Of a stretch of DNA of 61,553 bases, positions 53,630-60,807 are shown one piece after another. Numbering within the stretch: the stretch's first letter is position 1; the number at the start of each line of letters is the position of its first letter. Origin of the DNA: an uncultured Anaeromyxobacter sp. (lineage in GTDB: Bacteria; Myxococcota; Myxococcia; Myxococcales; Anaeromyxobacteraceae); contig CAIOAK010000149.1 in NCBI GenBank assembly GCA_903855945.1, positions 1-61,553 on the forward strand. The letters are read 5' to 3'. The position numbers and the translations under genes were made by a program. Under the pieces are notes generated by a model. The model was given only the letters and a program-made list of their open reading frames with translations, did not search any database and had not been told where the DNA came from.

Positions 53630-55186
53630 CTACGCCACCGCCCGGGGAGCGGGGGGAGTCCCGTCGGTCGGCTTGCGAACCGGCGCCGTGAGCCCCTCTG
53701 CGACCATGCGGGCGGGGAACTGCCGCTTCGACACCGGGTGCGGCCGGAAGGGTCCCCGGATGAGCCCGAGGAGGTCGCTCCAGGACATGTGGCGGCTGAA
53801 GTTGCGGAAGAGTTCCCACGTCCGGACCGGGCGCGTGGCCATGCGATGGAGCAGCAGGTTGGCGTAGCCCCACATCCGGATCCGGTTCACCTCGTCGGTG
53901 GGCACCGTGTCCGGATCGACGTCGCAGCACTTGAAGGTCTTGTCCCAGTCCTTCTCGTTGTCCACGAGGCCGCGCTTCGCGTACTCGTCCCAGAGCGGCG
54001 TCCCCCGGTAGACGGCCAGCCGGTTGAAGCCGAAGGTGTCGATCTGGAGGCGCGCCGCGTACCGGAAGGTCTCCCGGATCTCCTCGGCGGTCTCTTCCGG
54101 AGCACCGATGACGAAGAAGCCGTGCACACGCGAGATCCCGTGGCGCTTCGCCTCGGTGACGGCGTGCTCGACCTGCTCGAGGGTCTGCCGCTTCCGGAGG
54201 CGGTCGAGCACCCGCTGGGTCCCGGCCTCCACCCCGTAGGCGAGCCACTGGCAGTTGGCCTTCCCCATGAGCGGGAGCTGGTCCACGCCCACCGAGTCGA
54301 CGCGTCCCTCGCACCCCCAGTGAAACTTGAGGTCCCGATCGATGATGCCGTTGCAGATGGCGGCGATGCGCTTGCTCTGGAGCAGGAAGTGGTCGTCGGT
54401 GAGGTAGATCGACCGGTATCCCTTGTCGGAGAGCTCCTGCATCTCGCCCAGCACGTGCTCCGCCGATCGGGACCGCCACTTGCCCTCCCCGATGGAGGGG
54501 ATGTCGCAGTAGATGCAGGTGTAGGGGCAGCCGCGGGAGGTCTGGATGGTGCAGAACTTGTCGAGCGAGAGCACCGCCGGGATGTCGAGCGGGAGCGACT
54601 CGATGTAGTCGATGGGCAGGCTCTCCCGATCCGCGTAGGGGAACCGGTCGAAGTCCCGCAGGAGCGGCCGGGAACGGTTCTGGACGATCTCCTCGCCCCG
54701 ACGCCACGCCAGGCCGTCCACCACCGCCGGGTCGTCCAGGTGGGCGAGGTAATCGGGGAAGAGCTCCTCGCCCTCGCCCACGCCCACGTGATCGATGAAG
54801 GGGCACTCCTCGAGGATGTGCTTCGCGTTGATGGTCGCGAACGGGCCGCCGACGATGATGCGGACACCCGGATTCGCGCCCTTGATCACCTTCGCCGCCG
54901 CCTTGAGGTACGGGAAGGCGGTCACCGAGAGAAACGAGAGCGCGATGACGTCGGGCCGCTCCTCCCGCGCCGCGCCGGCGATGTCCTCGGCCTGCATCCG
55001 GGGATGGCAGGTGTCGAACATCCGCACCTCGTGCCCGGCCTGCCGGAGGATGGGGGCGAGCATCTGGATGCCCAGCGGCGGGAAGGCCATCACCTTGACC
55101 CGGTCGGTGGCCAGGGCCGGCTCGGGCTGCCCGGGCAGGAGATGGAAGTAGTCGTCGTCCTGCACGTAGGCGAGGTAAACGCGCAT
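53630..55186 (-). CDS. B12-binding domain radical SAM protein (second)
   Basis: A 518-residue cobalamin-dependent radical SAM enzyme. The B12 domain spans about 30-150 (PPLGIQMLAPILRQAGHEVR; VRIIVGGPFATIN), the 4Fe-4S motif is in QTSRGCPYTCIYCDIP, and VEAGTQRVLDRLRKRQ and FFVIGAPEETAEEIRETF mark the barrel end. Distinct in sequence from the enzyme at 38.6 kb, so not a recent duplicate. Likely a methyltransferase or cyclase on an unknown natural product or lipid. Confidence 0.9.
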   Translation of the reverse strand: MRVYLAYVQDDDYFHLLPGQPEPALATDRVKVMAFPPLGIQMLAPILRQAGHEVRMFDTCHPRMQAEDIAGAAREERPDVIALSFLSVTAFPYLKAAAKVIKGANPGVRIIVGGPFATINAKHILEECPFIDHVGVGEGEELFPDYLAHLDDPAVVDGLAWRRGEEIVQNRSRPLLRDFDRFPYADRESLPIDYIESLPLDIPAVLSLDKFCTIQTSRGCPYTCIYCDIPSIGEGKWRSRSAEHVLGEMQELSDKGYRSIYLTDDHFLLQSKRIAAICNGIIDRDLKFHWGCEGRVDSVGVDQLPLMGKANCQWLAYGVEAGTQRVLDRLRKRQTLEQVEHAVTEAKRHGISRVHGFFVIGAPEETAEEIRETFRYAARLQIDTFGFNRLAVYRGTPLWDEYAKRGLVDNEKDWDKTFKCCDVDPDTVPTDEVNRIRMWGYANLLLHRMATRPVRTWELFRNFSRHMSWSDLLGLIRGPFRPHPVSKRQFPARMVAEGLTAPVRKPTDGTPPAPRAVA

Positions 55187-55253: not shown

Positions 55254-55697
55254 TCAGTTACACATGGCGTATTCGCGGCCGTCGGCGCGCAGGATGATCG
55301 CGCCGTTCGAGTTCCGGGTCGCGTCCAGGCCGACGTCCTGGAATCCGGCGCCGGCCCCCTGATCGACGTACAGGCGAAGGCTCTCGACCTTCCAGCGCAG
55401 GGCGTCCTGCTTCCTCGACTGCCCCGCGTAGGTGCCGCCCTGGCCGGAGCTGTAGGTCTCGGCGCCGCCGCTCATCAGCATCACCCCGTCCCGGCGGAAC
55501 ACCACCTTGCGCGTGGTGGAGGTGCCGCTCACCTTGTTGTAGGTGAACGAGCACCAGGCGCTGCTCGTGAGGATCTGCCGGACCTGGGCATCCTGCGAGC
55601 CGTCCGGGGCATCCCGGGACGGGCCCGGTTGCGGCGCCGCCGATGCCTGGCCGACCGGCATGCCGAGCAGCGTGATGAGGAAGAGCAGCTTGCGCAT
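55254..55697 (-). CDS. Small secreted protein next to the TIR gene
   Basis: A 147-residue exported protein with signal peptide MRKLLFLITLLGMPVGQASA. The mature part has a WCSFTYNKVSG block, a basic strand (TTRKVVFRRDGVML) and a C-terminal DGREYAMC; Cys near WC and the last Cys could form a disulfide. Lipocalin-like beta character, family not recognised. AGGAGCC before the ATG is its Shine-Dalgarno. It follows the TIR gene after 39 nt on the same strand and is probably the third gene of the RyR-TIR operon. Confidence 0.7.
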   Translation of the reverse strand: MRKLLFLITLLGMPVGQASAAPQPGPSRDAPDGSQDAQVRQILTSSAWCSFTYNKVSGTSTTRKVVFRRDGVMLMSGGAETYSSGQGGTYAGQSRKQDALRWKVESLRLYVDQGAGAGFQDVGLDATRNSNGAIILRADGREYAMCN

Positions 55698-55736
55698 CGG
55701 AGGCTCCTTCGATCGGTGAGGCCGTGCGGCGTCGTC

Positions 55737-56972
55737 CTACTGGGCGCTCAACTGCAGCCGCGCCTGGGCCTTGAAGGTGGGCTGGACGTCCGTCACGTCC
55801 TCGCCCGGGACCCTGCCGAACTCGAGGTCCACCGTGAGCACGGGAGGGGTCTTTCCCAGGAGCATGTGCCCGGAGATGCGGACGTAGGCCTTGCCGTCGG
55901 TCGCGCGGGCCACCTGCACCCCCTCGAAGGACACGCGGTCCCCGTCGCGGGTGGCGCGCACGGTCATCGGGAAGAACCCGGGCGCCTGGTCGGCCGGGGC
56001 GAAGGTGAAGGCGCCACGCGGGCCGAGGTACCACTTCGCGTTTCCGACGAGGGACCGGCCGTGCCCCCGCGCCTCGGGGCTCCCCAGGTACTGGTTGAAC
56101 GACACCACCTCGGAGGTCGCGAAGGCGAGACGTTGCTCGGGCGGGCTCGCCGGAGGGGGGGCCGGTTGCTCGGTCCCCGGCGCGGCCGCCACCGACTTCC
56201 GGGCCTTCTGCACGGGCGCCTTCTGCACGGGCGCCTGCTGCACGGGCGCCTGCTGCACGGGCGCCTTCTGCGGGACGGCTGCCTCGCGGGGGGCCTGCGC
56301 CGGGAGGGGCGCAGCCACGGCCACCTCGGCGGGCGCAGCCGCCCCGGCGCTCGGTGGCTTCCCCCCGGGCCGGAGCAGGAGCACGGCGCCCACGCCGATC
56401 GCGGCGATCACCCCGGCGACTGCGATTCCGATCCGGAGCCGATCGCGCCCCCCCACCCTGCCCCGGGAGAGCCGAGGTCGCAGCGACTCGATGAGTTGCT
56501 GGACGTTGTGGTCCCAGTCCTGCTCGGTGATCTGGAGGCATTGTCGGCTCAGGAGGCCGTGCAGCGACTCCGGCAGGTCCTCCTCGGCGGGGACCGTGGC
56601 CCCTCCGATGAGCACCGGAACCACCAGGACGTCCGGGCGCCGGAGCGCCGTGCCGATCTCGAGGGCCACGACGTCGCGTGGGTCCTTGATGCGGCGTCGC
56701 CCCGCCGCGTCCACCACGTTCACCCAGGCCTTCCCGATGAGGACGAGGACCACCTGGCAGTGCCCCACGGTGTGCTCGATCTCCTCGAGGTAGTTCACCC
56801 CTGGTGCGAGCCCCTTCACGTCCATGAAGACCTGGTCGGGGAAGGCGCGCTCCAGGGCGTAGAGCAGCGCGCGGGCCTGCCCGCCGCTGTCCTCGCGCCG
56901 GTAGTTGATGAAGATGGCGCGGCGGCGGTCCGGACCCCCGTCGTGGCTTTCCGGCCCGGGACCCGGGGTCAT
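55737..56972 (-). CDS. TIR-domain transmembrane protein with extracytoplasmic domain
   Basis: A 411-residue protein with three parts. The TIR domain (about 18-165) opens RRAIFINYRREDSGGQARAL, then FMDVKGLAPGVNYLEEIE; E105 in DVVALEIGTALRRP sits where TIR NADases have their catalytic Glu. One membrane helix (181-200, IGIAVAGVIAAIGVGAVLLL) and an Ala/Pro linker with APVQQ/APVQK repeats lead to an unrecognised beta-rich domain (about 275-411). Positive charges before the helix place TIR inside and the tail outside. Known TIRs hydrolyse NAD+ or make signal nucleotides; activity here is inferred. Its ATG overlaps the RyR stop (ATGA). Confidence 0.85.
   Translation of the reverse strand: MTPGPGPESHDGGPDRRRAIFINYRREDSGGQARALLYALERAFPDQVFMDVKGLAPGVNYLEEIEHTVGHCQVVLVLIGKAWVNVVDAAGRRRIKDPRDVVALEIGTALRRPDVLVVPVLIGGATVPAEEDLPESLHGLLSRQCLQITEQDWDHNVQQLIESLRPRLSRGRVGGRDRLRIGIAVAGVIAAIGVGAVLLLRPGGKPPSAGAAAPAEVAVAAPLPAQAPREAAVPQKAPVQQAPVQQAPVQKAPVQKARKSVAAAPGTEQPAPPPASPPEQRLAFATSEVVSFNQYLGSPEARGHGRSLVGNAKWYLGPRGAFTFAPADQAPGFFPMTVRATRDGDRVSFEGVQVARATDGKAYVRISGHMLLGKTPPVLTVDLEFGRVPGEDVTDVQPTFKAQARLQLSAQ
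56201..56273. repeat. 15-bp tandem repeat in the TIR linker
   Basis: Four full copies plus a partial one of GGGCGCCTTCTGCAC (T or G at one position) encode APVQK/APVQQ in the extracytoplasmic linker. The copies are nearly identical at the DNA level, so the linker length is likely to vary between strains. Confidence 0.75.
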
Positions 56973-57283
56973 CGCTCTCCCCCCGGTTCGACCGGACCGA
57001 CGATCCGGAACCCGAACGCGTAGAGCGCCCTCAGCGTCGCCTCCGCCGCGATGCGGTCGTACTTCTTCTCCTCCTCGGGGAGGTCGTCGAACGGCACGAG
57101 GCTGGGATGGAACTTGGTCGCGTCCTCGCGACGGGGGCCGAGCGTCCATCCGTCGGCCAGACGCTCCCGGGCCCAGGCGTCGTGGACGGCCCGGGCGAGT
57201 CGGTCCAGGACGGCCTCGACCTCCTCGGGCAATCGACCCCGGGCGATCTCCGGCGGCAGCGGCCCACCTTGGCTGGACGGCAT
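56969..57283 (-). CDS. RyR-domain small protein
   Basis: A 104-residue protein whose body matches the RyR domain first seen in ryanodine receptors: an N-terminal helix (LPEEVEAVLDRLARAVHDAW), ADGWTLGPRREDATKFHPSL, VPFDDLPEEEKKYDRIAAEA and LYAFGFRIV. Prokaryotic RyR domains occur in nucleotide-signalling and conflict systems and are thought to bind a small ligand; that is not proved here. The ATG at 57283 was chosen because residues further upstream are not conserved in character. The stop overlaps the TIR start by 4 nt, so the two proteins are made together. Confidence 0.82.
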   Translation of the reverse strand: MPSSQGGPLPPEIARGRLPEEVEAVLDRLARAVHDAWARERLADGWTLGPRREDATKFHPSLVPFDDLPEEEKKYDRIAAEATLRALYAFGFRIVGPVEPGGER

Positions 57284-57514
57284 TCGCAGGGGGTGATCAC
57301 GGAATCGCCGCTCCCGGCCCGTTTCCACCCTTCTCCTTTCCTTTGGCGGCTCCGTGCCCGAGTATCACGAGCGAACCCGATCCGGCCAGCCTGCTGCACC
57401 CGGAGGACGGGCCCGGGCAGGCCCCGCGACCCCGGTCTGGCCGATACCCGTGCCGGGCGACCCTCGAATGCGGCATAATCAGGAGATCGTCTGTACCAAC
57501 CGGGGGGGATTCGG
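57284..57514. other. 231-nt divergent control region, RyR-TIR / barrel-SLATT
   Basis: The longest unexplained intergenic gap in the window. It holds GTGATCAC (57293-57300, self-complementary) close to the RyR start, and CATAAT (57474-57479) as a -10 candidate for the barrel gene with no good -35, suggesting an activator. The barrel ATG has a run of seven G as its Shine-Dalgarno. No RNA gene or further ORF is evident. Confidence 0.5.
57474..57479 (+). promoter_or_regulatory. -10 candidate for the barrel-SLATT operon
   Basis: CATAAT (5 of 6 matches) lies 35 nt before the barrel ATG. The hexamer 17 nt upstream (TGCCGG) is a poor -35. Confidence 0.35.
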
Positions 57515-58198
57515 ATGAAGCGACTTTTCGTTCTCTTGTGCCTTGTCGTGGTCGTCGCCCTACCGCACGGTGCGCGGGCCCAGCAGGGGGTCGACCCATT
57601 CCTGAAGGCCGCGCCCGCCGGACCGCCGGAGAGCGGGCTCTCCCTCGCGCTCAGCATCGGCTACGCAGTGCCGATGGGGAGCATCGACGGGTCCGCGAAG
57701 GTCTCGGACTTCTTCAGCGGCGGTCTTCCGCTCCAGGTGGACATCGGCTGGCGCTTCACCCCCAACCTCTACCTGGGCGCCTTCTTCGAGTACTCGTTCG
57801 CCTTCCTGAACTCGACGGTGAGCAGCGGCTGCTCGGCGACCCCCGGAGTCAGCTGCTCGGGCAGCAACATCCAGTTCGGCGTCGACTTCGTCTACACGTT
57901 CATGCCGTACGCGAAGTTCGCGCCTTACGTGGGACTCGGCGTCGGGTGGGAGTTCGCCTCCCTGAGCGCGTCCGCATCCAATGTCTCCCAGTCGCTGACG
58001 CTCTCGGGCTTCCAGTTCGCCCGCATCATCGTGGGCGGCGATTTCCGGGTGGGTTCTGCCTTCCGGGTCGGCCCCTTCGTGAACTTCTCGCTGGGTCAGT
58101 ACGGCAGCGTCAGCTCCACGGGTCTGAACCTCACCCTCGGGGACAAGACCCTCCACGAGTGGTTCCAGTTCGGGGTCAAGGGCACCGTAGACCTGTGA
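57515..58198 (+). CDS. Outer-membrane beta-barrel protein upstream of SLATT
   Basis: A 227-residue exported protein. The signal peptide is MKRLFVLLCLVVVVALPHGA, then RAQ. The mature chain is a series of amphipathic strands with alternating aromatic residues (LSLALSIGYAVPMG, LQVDIGWRFTPNLYLGAFFE, IQFGVDFVYTFMPYAKFAPY, FQFARIIVGGDFRVG), consistent with an 8-strand OmpW/OmpX-like barrel; it ends FGVKGTVDL without the usual terminal Phe. Two Cys in SSGCSATPGVSC may pair. The stop overlaps the SLATT GTG, so a barrel and an inner-membrane effector are translationally coupled. Confidence 0.8.
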   Translation: MKRLFVLLCLVVVVALPHGARAQQGVDPFLKAAPAGPPESGLSLALSIGYAVPMGSIDGSAKVSDFFSGGLPLQVDIGWRFTPNLYLGAFFEYSFAFLNSTVSSGCSATPGVSCSGSNIQFGVDFVYTFMPYAKFAPYVGLGVGWEFASLSASASNVSQSLTLSGFQFARIIVGGDFRVGSAFRVGPFVNFSLGQYGSVSSTGLNLTLGDKTLHEWFQFGVKGTVDL

Positions 58199-59112
58199 CC
58201 GAGCCGGAGCGGTCGGCGCCCGTATCGTTCGACGCCTACCCCGGCCTCTTCCAGGGGGCCGACGTGGCGGCCGTCTCGCTCCGGTCACGCCATTACGGGG
58301 GCGAGGCGCTGCTGCTCGTCCTGAACCCGGTCAGCGCGGGCCTGGCCCTGCTCGTCACGCTGGGGGCGGTGCGGCTTCCAGGCGCCGTGTTCACGGCGAT
58401 CTCGACCATGCTCATGGTCCTCGCGCTCTGGGTGACGCGCGCCGCGCACTGGCAGCACAAGTGGTACGAGTGCCGGAGCGTCGCCGAGGACCTGAAGCGG
58501 CTCACCTGGCGCTACCTCATGCAGCTCGAGCCCTTCACTGCCGACGAGAAGGCCCCCGACGCGGCCTTCGTCTCCGCGGCGAACGGGATCCTGCACCGGT
58601 ACCCGGGGGTGCTCACCATCGTGGGACGGCGCGACCACACCCCGTCGCCACCGGTCACGCCGGAGATGCGGCGCGTGCGACAGTCGAGCGTCGAGGAGCG
58701 CGCCGAGCTCTTCCTGACGTCACGCCTGCGCCCCGAGGTGGCCTGGTACGCGGCCAAGGCACGGCGCCTGGGGACGGCCGACCGCAGGTGGTTCGCCGCC
58801 CTGATCTTCGTGCAGGTCGCCGCCGTCGCTTCCGCCCTCATCCTGGCCTTCCGGGTTCTCCGGGGCACCTGGAGTCCTGCCGAGGACGGCTGGGTGGTCA
58901 TGCTGACGGCCGTGGGCACTTCCATGATCGGCTGGCAGCGATCCAAGCGCTTCTCCGACCTGGAGTCCTCCTACGCCGCCACGGCTCATGCCCTGGCGGG
59001 GATGGAATCGGCCCGGCCGCAGCCGTCCGAGTCGGGCCCGTACGTGAAGTGGCTCGAACGCGTGGAGGCGACGCTGGCCCAGGAGCACGAGGCCTGGCGC
59101 CACATGACCTGA
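58195..59112 (+). CDS. Tandem SLATT-like (DUF4231-type) membrane protein
   Basis: A 305-residue protein with two helix pairs (about 38-59 with 65-81, and 198-220 with 233-246), each followed or preceded by SLATT-type sequence: HKWYECRSVAEDLKRLTWRY, then LMQLEPF, after the first pair, and ERAELFLTSRLRPEVAWYAA with KARRL before the second. Both helix pairs are flanked by cytoplasmic helices. SLATT proteins are predicted pore-forming effectors tied to nucleotide-signal systems. GTG start overlaps the barrel stop (GTGA). The proximity of TIR and RyR genes supports a shared system. Assignment by pattern, not by search. Confidence 0.72.
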   Translation: MTEPERSAPVSFDAYPGLFQGADVAAVSLRSRHYGGEALLLVLNPVSAGLALLVTLGAVRLPGAVFTAISTMLMVLALWVTRAAHWQHKWYECRSVAEDLKRLTWRYLMQLEPFTADEKAPDAAFVSAANGILHRYPGVLTIVGRRDHTPSPPVTPEMRRVRQSSVEERAELFLTSRLRPEVAWYAAKARRLGTADRRWFAALIFVQVAAVASALILAFRVLRGTWSPAEDGWVVMLTAVGTSMIGWQRSKRFSDLESSYAATAHALAGMESARPQPSESGPYVKWLERVEATLAQEHEAWRHMT

Positions 59113-59181: not shown

Positions 59182-59865
59182 CTAGAAGAGCCGGTAGCCC
59201 ACGAAGGCCTGTACCTGGAACGCGAACAGCGCAGAGGACCCCGACGAGGTGGGGATCGCGACGCCGAAGCGGGTATTCAGGCCGAGGGCCAGGTTCGGGT
59301 TGTCGAGGTGGTACTCGACGTACGGTCCCGCCCACGGGCCGATGACGAACGTGACGGGGGTGGTCACGTTGAGCGCCATGTTGAGGTCGAGGCCGAACCC
59401 GACCTCCACGTTGCGCGCCACGGGGAAGCCGCCCACGATTCCGACCGGGGCCTGGAAACCGAAGATCGTGTTGCTCGTGGTACCGCAGTAATAGAAGTTG
59501 CAGGTGCTGCTCCCGAAGTAGAGCTGCACGCCCGGATCGACGTGGAGGAGCATGTTGAACCCGCTCCCGCGAACCAGCTGGAAGCGGATGGGAGCCCACA
59601 GGCCGAGCCCGAACTGGGTGAGGGTCGTGCCCCCGAGTCCGTAGAGGAGGCCGAAGCGGATGCCGAGGTCGCTCGACTTGCCCATGCTGAAGGTGTAGCC
59701 GAAGTTGACGTTGGGCCAGCCGACCTGGACGTCCTCGTAGGCCTTGCCGGTGTTGACCTGGGCTCCGACGACGCTCCAGTCGCCCAGCCCCTTGGCCTCC
59801 TGGGCCAGGGAAGAGAAGGGAGCGAGCGCGAGCAGGACCACGAGTGCGAGCGACTTGAGTCTCAT
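59182..59865 (-). CDS. Outer-membrane beta-barrel protein (second)
   Basis: A 227-residue exported barrel-type protein: signal peptide MRLKSLALVVLLALAPFSSL, then AQ, strands such as VNFGYTFSMGKSSDLGIRFG and NVEVGFGLDLNMALNV, and a canonical C-terminal strand FAFQVQAFVGYRLF ending in Phe, the BAM recognition signal. A Cys pair sits in TCNFYYCG. It is unrelated in sequence to the barrel at 57515 but equal in length. AGGAAA is the Shine-Dalgarno. Function unknown. Confidence 0.8.
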   Translation of the reverse strand: MRLKSLALVVLLALAPFSSLAQEAKGLGDWSVVGAQVNTGKAYEDVQVGWPNVNFGYTFSMGKSSDLGIRFGLLYGLGGTTLTQFGLGLWAPIRFQLVRGSGFNMLLHVDPGVQLYFGSSTCNFYYCGTTSNTIFGFQAPVGIVGGFPVARNVEVGFGLDLNMALNVTTPVTFVIGPWAGPYVEYHLDNPNLALGLNTRFGVAIPTSSGSSALFAFQVQAFVGYRLF

Positions 59866-60399: not shown

Positions 60400-60690
60400 C
60401 TACCTGGACTTCTTCGAGCGGACTGGCTTGGGCTTGACGGGCTGCGGCCTCGGCGCCCTCGTCGGCCTGGCCAGCAGGGCCTTCCCCTGCTTGACCTGCT
60501 CGACGGACTTCCTCATCTCCGACTTCTTCTTCTCGACACCGGCCACGCGCTCTCGCTCCGTCGTGACCTGCCCGAAGGTCTTCTTCAACGCGTTCCGCGT
60601 CCTGGCGGCGGCGGTCAGAAGGTCCCGTCCCTCCGCCAGTTGTTCGAAAGTCTTCTTCATGTCGGCAGCGACCTTCACCTTCTTGCTCAT
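60400..60690 (-). CDS. Small lysine-rich coiled-coil protein
   Basis: A 96-residue, strongly basic helical protein. [20 protein letters not shown] begins a helix that continues to about residue 70 ([18 protein letters not shown]); the tail is Pro/Lys/Arg-rich ([17 protein letters not shown]), like histone H1-type tails that bind [17 protein letters not shown] and [14 protein letters not shown] look like an internal repeat. Possibly a nucleoid-associated protein. Followed by the 66-residue gene. Confidence 0.6.
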
Positions 60691-60807
60691 GGCGTCCCCC
60701 CCCTGCGTTCGTCCCGAAGCATACATCCCGCACCCAGGGGGAGCCACCGAGCAACACCCGGGATCTGCTACCATCCGCCTCACCCGCCCCCTTTCCGGAG
60801 CCCTCAC

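Follow-up and report, generated by a model that had tools for sequence, protein, structure and literature searches.

A conserved Anaeromyxobacter gene unit encoding RyR, TIR, SLATT and barrel-like proteins, a possible variant of TIR-SLATT conflict systems

Organisation and conservation of the unit

Five genes encoding a RyR-domain protein, a TIR protein, a fused SLATT protein and two barrel-like proteins lie together on contig CAIOAK010000149.1 from an uncultured Anaeromyxobacter sp. The whole contig, 61,553 bases long and referred to here as the window, was analysed; the host genome is about 4.07 Mb. A preliminary description, made from the letters of the sequence, had proposed that positions 55254–59112 encode an envelope-linked conflict system in which a TIR-made nucleotide product is read by RyR or SLATT, and SLATT opens the membrane. 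Its observation holds, with corrections, and its interpretation is partly supported. The span it gave stopped short of the second barrel-like gene, which is conserved (70% identity) in the genome of a sister species (G027), where the whole unit is found again (locus L008). Domain matches were judged against Pfam and NCBIfam cut-offs, and the defence models were those of PADLOC. The surveys covered 195 genomes of the phylum Myxococcota, 24 of the family and four of the genus, the window's own included. The features of the locus are the following, with protein lengths in amino acids (aa) and other lengths in nucleotides (nt).

55737–56972, minus strand: TIR_2 gene, 411 aa (TIR_2 E 1.5e-9), overlapping the RyR stop codon; TIR domain at about residues 17–165, membrane helix 181–199, Pro/Ala-rich stretch 200–278 and C-terminal domain at about 279–411
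56972–57283, minus strand: RyR-domain gene (PF02026), 104 aa from an ATG shared with the sister protein; stop codon 56969–56971
57284–57514, no strand: divergent intergenic region separating RyR-TIR from barrel-SLATT, 231 nt long against 136 nt in the sister
57515–58198, plus strand: barrel-like protein 1, 227 aa, signal-peptide-like start, OMP_b-brl E 1.8e-4
58195–59112, plus strand: fused SLATT_3-SLATT_1 gene, 305 aa, GTG start, several hydrophobic helices (hydropathy)
59182–59865, minus strand: barrel-like protein 2, 227 aa, signal-peptide-like start, Phe at the C-terminal end, convergent with SLATT
55254–55697, minus strand: secreted protein, 147 aa, downstream of TIR, signal-peptide-like start, no significant Pfam family

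The conserved unit consists of RyR, TIR, barrel 1, SLATT and barrel 2, whose order and orientation are kept in G027 at 60–70% identity (RyR 60%, TIR 70–71%, barrel 1 68%, SLATT 63%). Both stop-start overlaps pointed out in the preliminary description are present and retained in the sister, that of RyR and TIR as ATGA in the window and GTGA in the sister, and that of barrel 1 and SLATT as GTGA in both. Ratios of nonsynonymous to synonymous substitution (dN/dS), obtained from two sequences (window and G027) using our own NG86 script with Jukes-Cantor correction, were 0.50 for RyR, 0.35 for TIR, 0.32 for barrel 1, 0.45 for SLATT and 0.44 for barrel 2.

The surroundings of the unit are different in the two genomes. 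No non-unit frame from the part of the window beyond 40 kb, after filtering by third-codon-position GC content, was more than 45% identical to the sister contig over its first 40 kb, and the radical-SAM and HAD neighbours of the window unit sit on other contigs in G027 and in a further sister genome, G028. That the five genes have stayed linked in two genomes whose flanks differ suggests more than chance. Co-occurrence of the genes elsewhere, which the preliminary description had made a test of its idea, is thus seen narrowly, in a single additional member of the genus, and does not extend to the secreted gene.

Assignment of the encoded proteins

The profile searches assigned both RyR and SLATT as had been proposed. 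The RyR domain lies well over the Pfam cut-off (PF02026 E 2.6e-24, 85.7 bits vs 27.4), is strongly matched by solved ryanodine-receptor domains and is the only RyR match within the window's genome. A direct alignment with the phage protein RyDEP (DyoEdafos gp78) places H34, W37, H59 and D76 opposite RyDEP H75, W78, H100 and D117, and the RyR proteins of the window, the sister and two plasmids share all four pocket residues with it. According to a preprint of May 2026 (PMC13232231), RyDEP cleaves 2'/3' cyclic ADP-ribose (2'/3'cADPR), with W78 and H100 as ligand residues and H75/D117 as the catalytic pair. The same text reports that six of eight other phage RyR homologues bound signals and that none of those tested cleaved them, that the pocket residues alone do not tell cleavers from sponges, and that phages silence TIR systems with RyR proteins. 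From the sequence we infer that RyR binds or destroys a TIR-made signal; moreover, its co-translation with TIR, together with the silencing of TIR systems by phage RyR proteins, suggests a built-in brake.

The TIR protein was confirmed to have a TIR domain, a membrane helix and a domain beyond it. It contains a single strong hydrophobic helix (residues 181–199), followed by a linker of 79 residues with 19 Pro and 22 Ala, the boundaries of which were set by us. An alignment of the TIR domain to SARM1 structures (best E 1.1e-4) puts E105 opposite E642, the catalytic glutamate of SARM1 (724-residue chain, counted along the alignment). In a low-confidence full-length model, the TIR part matches the TIR domains of SPARTA and TIR-STING (Foldseek). 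An arginine-rich stretch precedes the membrane helix and the Pro/Ala-rich one comes after it, which suggests that the TIR domain is on the cytoplasmic side and the C-terminal domain outside. Extended, the 79-residue linker would reach about 25 nm, so that contact with the outer membrane appears sterically possible. The envelope link of the preliminary description is therefore upheld by the helix, the Pro/Ala stretch and the C-terminal domain.

The C-terminal domain matched no Pfam family. Standalone relatives were found on a cyanobacterial plasmid of Stanieria (L075 4914–5408, E 1e-7) and, weakly, on a Rhodococcus plasmid (L076 3875–4405, E 0.03; signal-peptide-like start by eye), neither having a Pfam match. 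The domain was matched in three of the 195 phylum genomes, one of these being a 22-bit match in G182 that was dropped since no TIR-like frame could be seen over it by eye, and was not matched in phages. An avidin-like fold was not relied on, the matches being weak and none reaching E ≤0.001 for the separate domain.

SLATT_3 (E 4.6e-22) and SLATT_1 (E 5.9e-16) were both found in one open frame (Pfam, NCBIfam). The duplicated, tandem SLATT gene of the preliminary description hence consists of two fused domains and not of two genes. SLATT_3 matches occur in 11 of the 195 phylum genomes, and relatives of the window's SLATT protein in two of the 24 family genomes.

For barrel 1, described beforehand as a beta-barrel gene, the OMP_b-brl match scores 22.2 bits in the window and 26.3 in the sister copy, both below the Pfam cut-off of 28.7. 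Its identity to proteins other than the sister unit's copy is ≤45% among the matches listed from the 195 genomes, and its family was matched in 86 of these genomes, with six matches in the window's own. Barrel 2 has no Pfam family and was judged to be a barrel by eye; it is 56–58% identical to non-unit copies in the genus, and its family was matched in 109 of the 195 genomes. Such widespread families suggest that the barrels were recruited and are not a special class. The coupling to a barrel and a secreted protein had been singled out as an arrangement not recognised from elsewhere, and barrels are indeed unusual beside TIR-SLATT genes, but the families themselves are common.

The secreted protein is present downstream of TIR as described, but its gene was not found in the G027 locus or genome, and of its relatives in 13 other genomes among the 195 none has a RyR match. 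It was rejected on these grounds as a core component and stands outside the conserved unit. The shared control region measures 231 nt, as first given, if RyR starts at ATG 57283, and less if it starts at GTG 57328, up to which the frame stays open. The region showed no clear conservation against the sister and no sigma-70-like promoter, and scans for promoters and terminators gave nothing above chance.

Beyond the secreted gene, positions 53630–55186 (minus strand) encode a B12-binding radical SAM protein, BchE/HpnJ-like and below the cut-offs for those families; relatives at 72–73% identity occur in other places in two sister species, the copy in G028 having an in-frame TGA. On the other side of the unit, a lysine-rich frame end at 60400–60693 (minus strand) appears by eye to encode a small basic, histone-H1-like protein.

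Recurrent TIR-SLATT pairing and comparison with known systems

The association of TIR with fused SLATT genes was examined on plasmids. Of 80 matching records, 40 were listed and 11 loci examined, chosen non-randomly to span organisms, with several being related: Rhodococcus, R. etli, Vibrio vulnificus, Agrobacterium MA01, Klebsiella variicola, Neorhizobium, A. leguminum, Serratia, Yersinia aleksiciae, Klebsiella pneumoniae and V. harveyi. A TIR gene lies next to the fused SLATT gene in nine of the 11, although in the 5.2 kb plasmid of K. pneumoniae this holds only if the record, given as linear, is circularised. In Agrobacterium MA01 a TIR gene is within 3 kb without being the next gene, and in R. 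etli none is annotated within 4 kb of SLATT. Four of the plasmid SLATT proteins and their four TIR partners were confirmed by Pfam. Likewise, in the Myxococcota genome G094 two TIR_2 genes come after a fused SLATT gene, all on one strand. Together, the adjacency in the plasmid loci and in G094 shows that TIR and SLATT are recurrently associated, and this lends support to the earlier idea that TIR makes a signal and SLATT is the membrane effector.

The pairing as such is already known. PMC9503650 reports TIR-SLATT gene pairs from firmicute phages and predicts SLATT to be an ADP-ribose (ADPR)-regulated effector of membrane permeability associated with TIR; gating of the SLATT pore by a TIR signal is, in PMC9503650 and PMC7159879, a prediction. 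What is unusual in the unit studied here is the co-translation of RyR with TIR, and the barrels. Among the papers listed by a literature search, we recognised none as describing a RyR-TIR-SLATT locus; a mention may exist in Burroughs et al. 2015, reportedly the primary SLATT paper.

The plasmid pairs (Vibrio, Klebsiella, Serratia, Yersinia, rhizobial and Rhodococcus plasmids; DUF4231 with TIR) resemble the unit in having a fused SLATT_3-SLATT_1 and a TIR gene in one locus. In the window and in the sister these two genes are not neighbours, since RyR and barrel 1 stand between them in divergent units. Furthermore, three of the four TIR proteins checked by Pfam on plasmids are of the ThsB_TIR type, with no RyR or barrel annotated beside them, whereas the unit has a TIR_2 domain with a membrane helix and a C-terminal domain, a RyR co-translated with it, and a SLATT co-translated with a barrel.

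Among the enterobacterial and Vibrio plasmids, small and large, five (L015, L017, L044, L045 and L046) carry a convergent pair of a fused SLATT gene and a small TIR gene; no PADLOC model was matched by the SLATT protein of L015 or that of L017. Two rhizobial plasmids, L042 1–5372 (NZ_CP123001.1) and L043 1–5402 (NZ_CP120216.1), have a QueC-type gene inside the TIR-SLATT cluster, in the operon-like order carbohydrate kinase, TIR, DNA lyase or hypothetical protein, 7-cyano-7-deazaguanine synthase (QueC), TIR, fused SLATT, TIR.

A likeness to Thoeris lies in a TIR domain with the aligned glutamate, from which an ADPR-type signal for a separate effector would be expected. The unit differs in having no ThsA-type effector, a part that SLATT would play, and in a TIR protein that appears to be membrane-anchored. 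No Thoeris model reached its cut-off (partial ThsB, 29.1 bits; ThcB4, 32.3 vs a cut-off of 220), and the Pfam listing of the unit's proteins contained no SIR2, SLOG or macro domain. By the tests run, the unit is not Thoeris. With Pycsar and CBASS it shares the logic of a nucleotide signal and a membrane effector, but the same Pfam listing held no cyclase or CD-NTase. The phage RyDEP and sponge proteins of the preprint (PMC13232231) have PF02026 with the H75, W78, H100 and D117 positions that are all kept here; unlike them, the RyR gene of the unit is bacterial and overlaps a TIR gene rather than countering the TIR of a host. Taken together, the unit is best called a variant form of the TIR-SLATT conflict systems.

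RyR domains were also found in other settings. In three large myxobacterial genomes (L003, L004 and L005) RyR forms the C-terminal end of proteins of about 585 aa; the L005 protein, which was scanned, has a TrkA_N domain, and the other two look like close relatives. Nine plasmid matches were obtained, of which seven were examined. One plasmid RyR forms the C-terminal end of a 910-aa protein whose matches to AAA/MoxR were all sub-threshold. On a Priestia plasmid (NZ_CP128553.1, L012 647–8856), a row that starts with a PycTM gene has RyR immediately downstream of an adenylate/guanylate-cyclase gene, and about 1.4 kb further on, on the opposite strand, lies a TIR_2 gene; judging by this row, RyR may also serve cyclic-nucleotide systems. 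An Arcobacter plasmid has RyR beside TrkA_N and DUF4062 genes, and the four further loci have phage-like or uninformative surroundings. RyR matches were found in 204 records of the phage collection.

Proposed mechanism and alternative explanations

The reading that we favour is a trans-envelope TIR-SLATT conflict system based on a nucleotide signal, with RyR as its off-switch. The inner membrane would anchor TIR, and a TonB-like Pro/Ala linker would carry its C-terminal domain into the periplasm; this linker is in principle long enough to reach the outer membrane, the presumed site of one or both of the co-inherited barrels. An envelope event, such as phage adsorption, injection or damage, would cause the TIR domains to cluster and to convert nicotinamide adenine dinucleotide (NAD+) into an ADP-ribose-type signal, which would gate SLATT_3-SLATT_1 and permeabilise the inner membrane. 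RyR would bind this signal and most likely hydrolyse or buffer it, setting a threshold and acting as an off-switch, so that basal TIR activity leaves SLATT shut. The role would most likely be abortive anti-phage or envelope-damage defence. We put the mechanism as a whole at even odds (about 0.5), since only two related genomes were found to carry the unit and its functions, namely the topology, NADase activity, signal identity, SLATT gating, RyR action, barrel contact and phage trigger, are ones that we infer. A fully specified version, a cellular TIR defence that has its own RyR glycosidase or sponge as the off-switch of a cADPR-type alarm, comparable to a CRISPR ring nuclease and of a protein type that serves phages as a weapon against TIR, and that uses TIR as a true trans-envelope receptor, reading the outer membrane via the Pro/Ala linker and a barrel, to open the SLATT pore, is doubtful.

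Several results weigh against the favoured mechanism. The unit was seen in only two genomes of one genus (two of the four genus genomes have RyR and SLATT), and RyR occurs in just five of the 195 phylum genomes, two with the unit and three with the RyR-ended proteins of about 585 aa. A SLATT pattern scan over about 85,000 species genomes returned only the sister, and scans of viral contigs with the RyR and SLATT alignments confirmed no relatives; both used short exact patterns, which makes the SLATT scan insensitive. Within the cut-offs used, the unit is not covered by any system model of PADLOC or NCBIfam. Among the seven plasmid RyR matches examined, none has an annotated TIR gene overlapping or adjoining RyR, hypothetical neighbours having been left unscanned. 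Both models of TIR, full-length and C-terminal domain alone, are of low confidence, with mean predicted local distance difference test (pLDDT) values of 50.0 and 53.6. The H/D pair in RyR is not proof of hydrolysis, the tested phage homologues besides RyDEP being non-cleaving in the preprint (PMC13232231). Moreover, both barrel families are common outside the unit, and within about 1.5 kb on each side of eight non-unit barrel-1 loci neither RyR nor TIR nor SLATT was matched (E <1e-3), for which reasons the barrels were rejected as a special effector class.

The main rival to a built-in brake is that RyR is a receiver and not a sink, the liganded RyR acting on SLATT or TIR so that the pore opens, in the manner of a split ligand-gated channel. 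This corresponds to the nucleotide product read by RyR of the preliminary description, which is thus one of two options. The intact pocket residues are consistent with it, as is the Priestia row, in which RyR comes at the end behind PycTM and cyclase genes, and the joining or proximity of RyR to TrkA_N, in the myxobacterial protein of about 585 aa and on the Arcobacter plasmid, would fit ligand sensing near transport. The plasmid TIR-SLATT loci examined, however, have no annotated RyR neighbour, so SLATT seems not generally to need RyR. Furthermore, the RyR chemistry that we found demonstrated (PMC13232231) is binding or hydrolysis of cADPR signals by phage proteins, so that in the unit, too, RyR may clear or retain the signal and not report it. 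We regard a receiver role as possible, with the balance against it.

Two other explanations would dispense with part or all of the signalling scheme. TIR could simply be an effector that depletes NAD+, and SLATT a toxin working independently of it, with RyR and the barrels as hitchhikers in an accident of a small lineage. The finding of the unit in only two related genomes and the common barrel families would agree with this; yet order, orientation and both overlaps are retained at 60–70% identity amid unlike flanks, and TIR-SLATT adjacency recurs, which makes such an accident unlikely. Alternatively, TIR, RyR and SLATT could tune ion flux according to the state of the outer membrane, in envelope homeostasis with no role in conflict. 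The TIR membrane helix with two barrel-like genes is compatible with this, as are the joining of RyR to TrkA_N in another myxobacterium and a weak NCBIfam similarity of the TIR linker region to the gliding proteins GltJ/GltG, which is far below cut-off and probably low complexity. A patchy presence in the genus (one of the two genomes without the unit is only 74% complete), together with the occurrence of both RyR and SLATT on plasmids and of RyR in phages as well, argues against homeostasis, which we hold to be very improbable.

If the trans-envelope system with a RyR off-switch is true, it would show how bacteria restrain toxic ADPR-type alarm signalling and would give the phage RyR proteins described in 2026 a counterpart in cells. 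It would also be relevant to the question of cADPR in animal ryanodine receptors, and the sensing by TIR from outside the cytoplasm would amount to a Toll-like arrangement.

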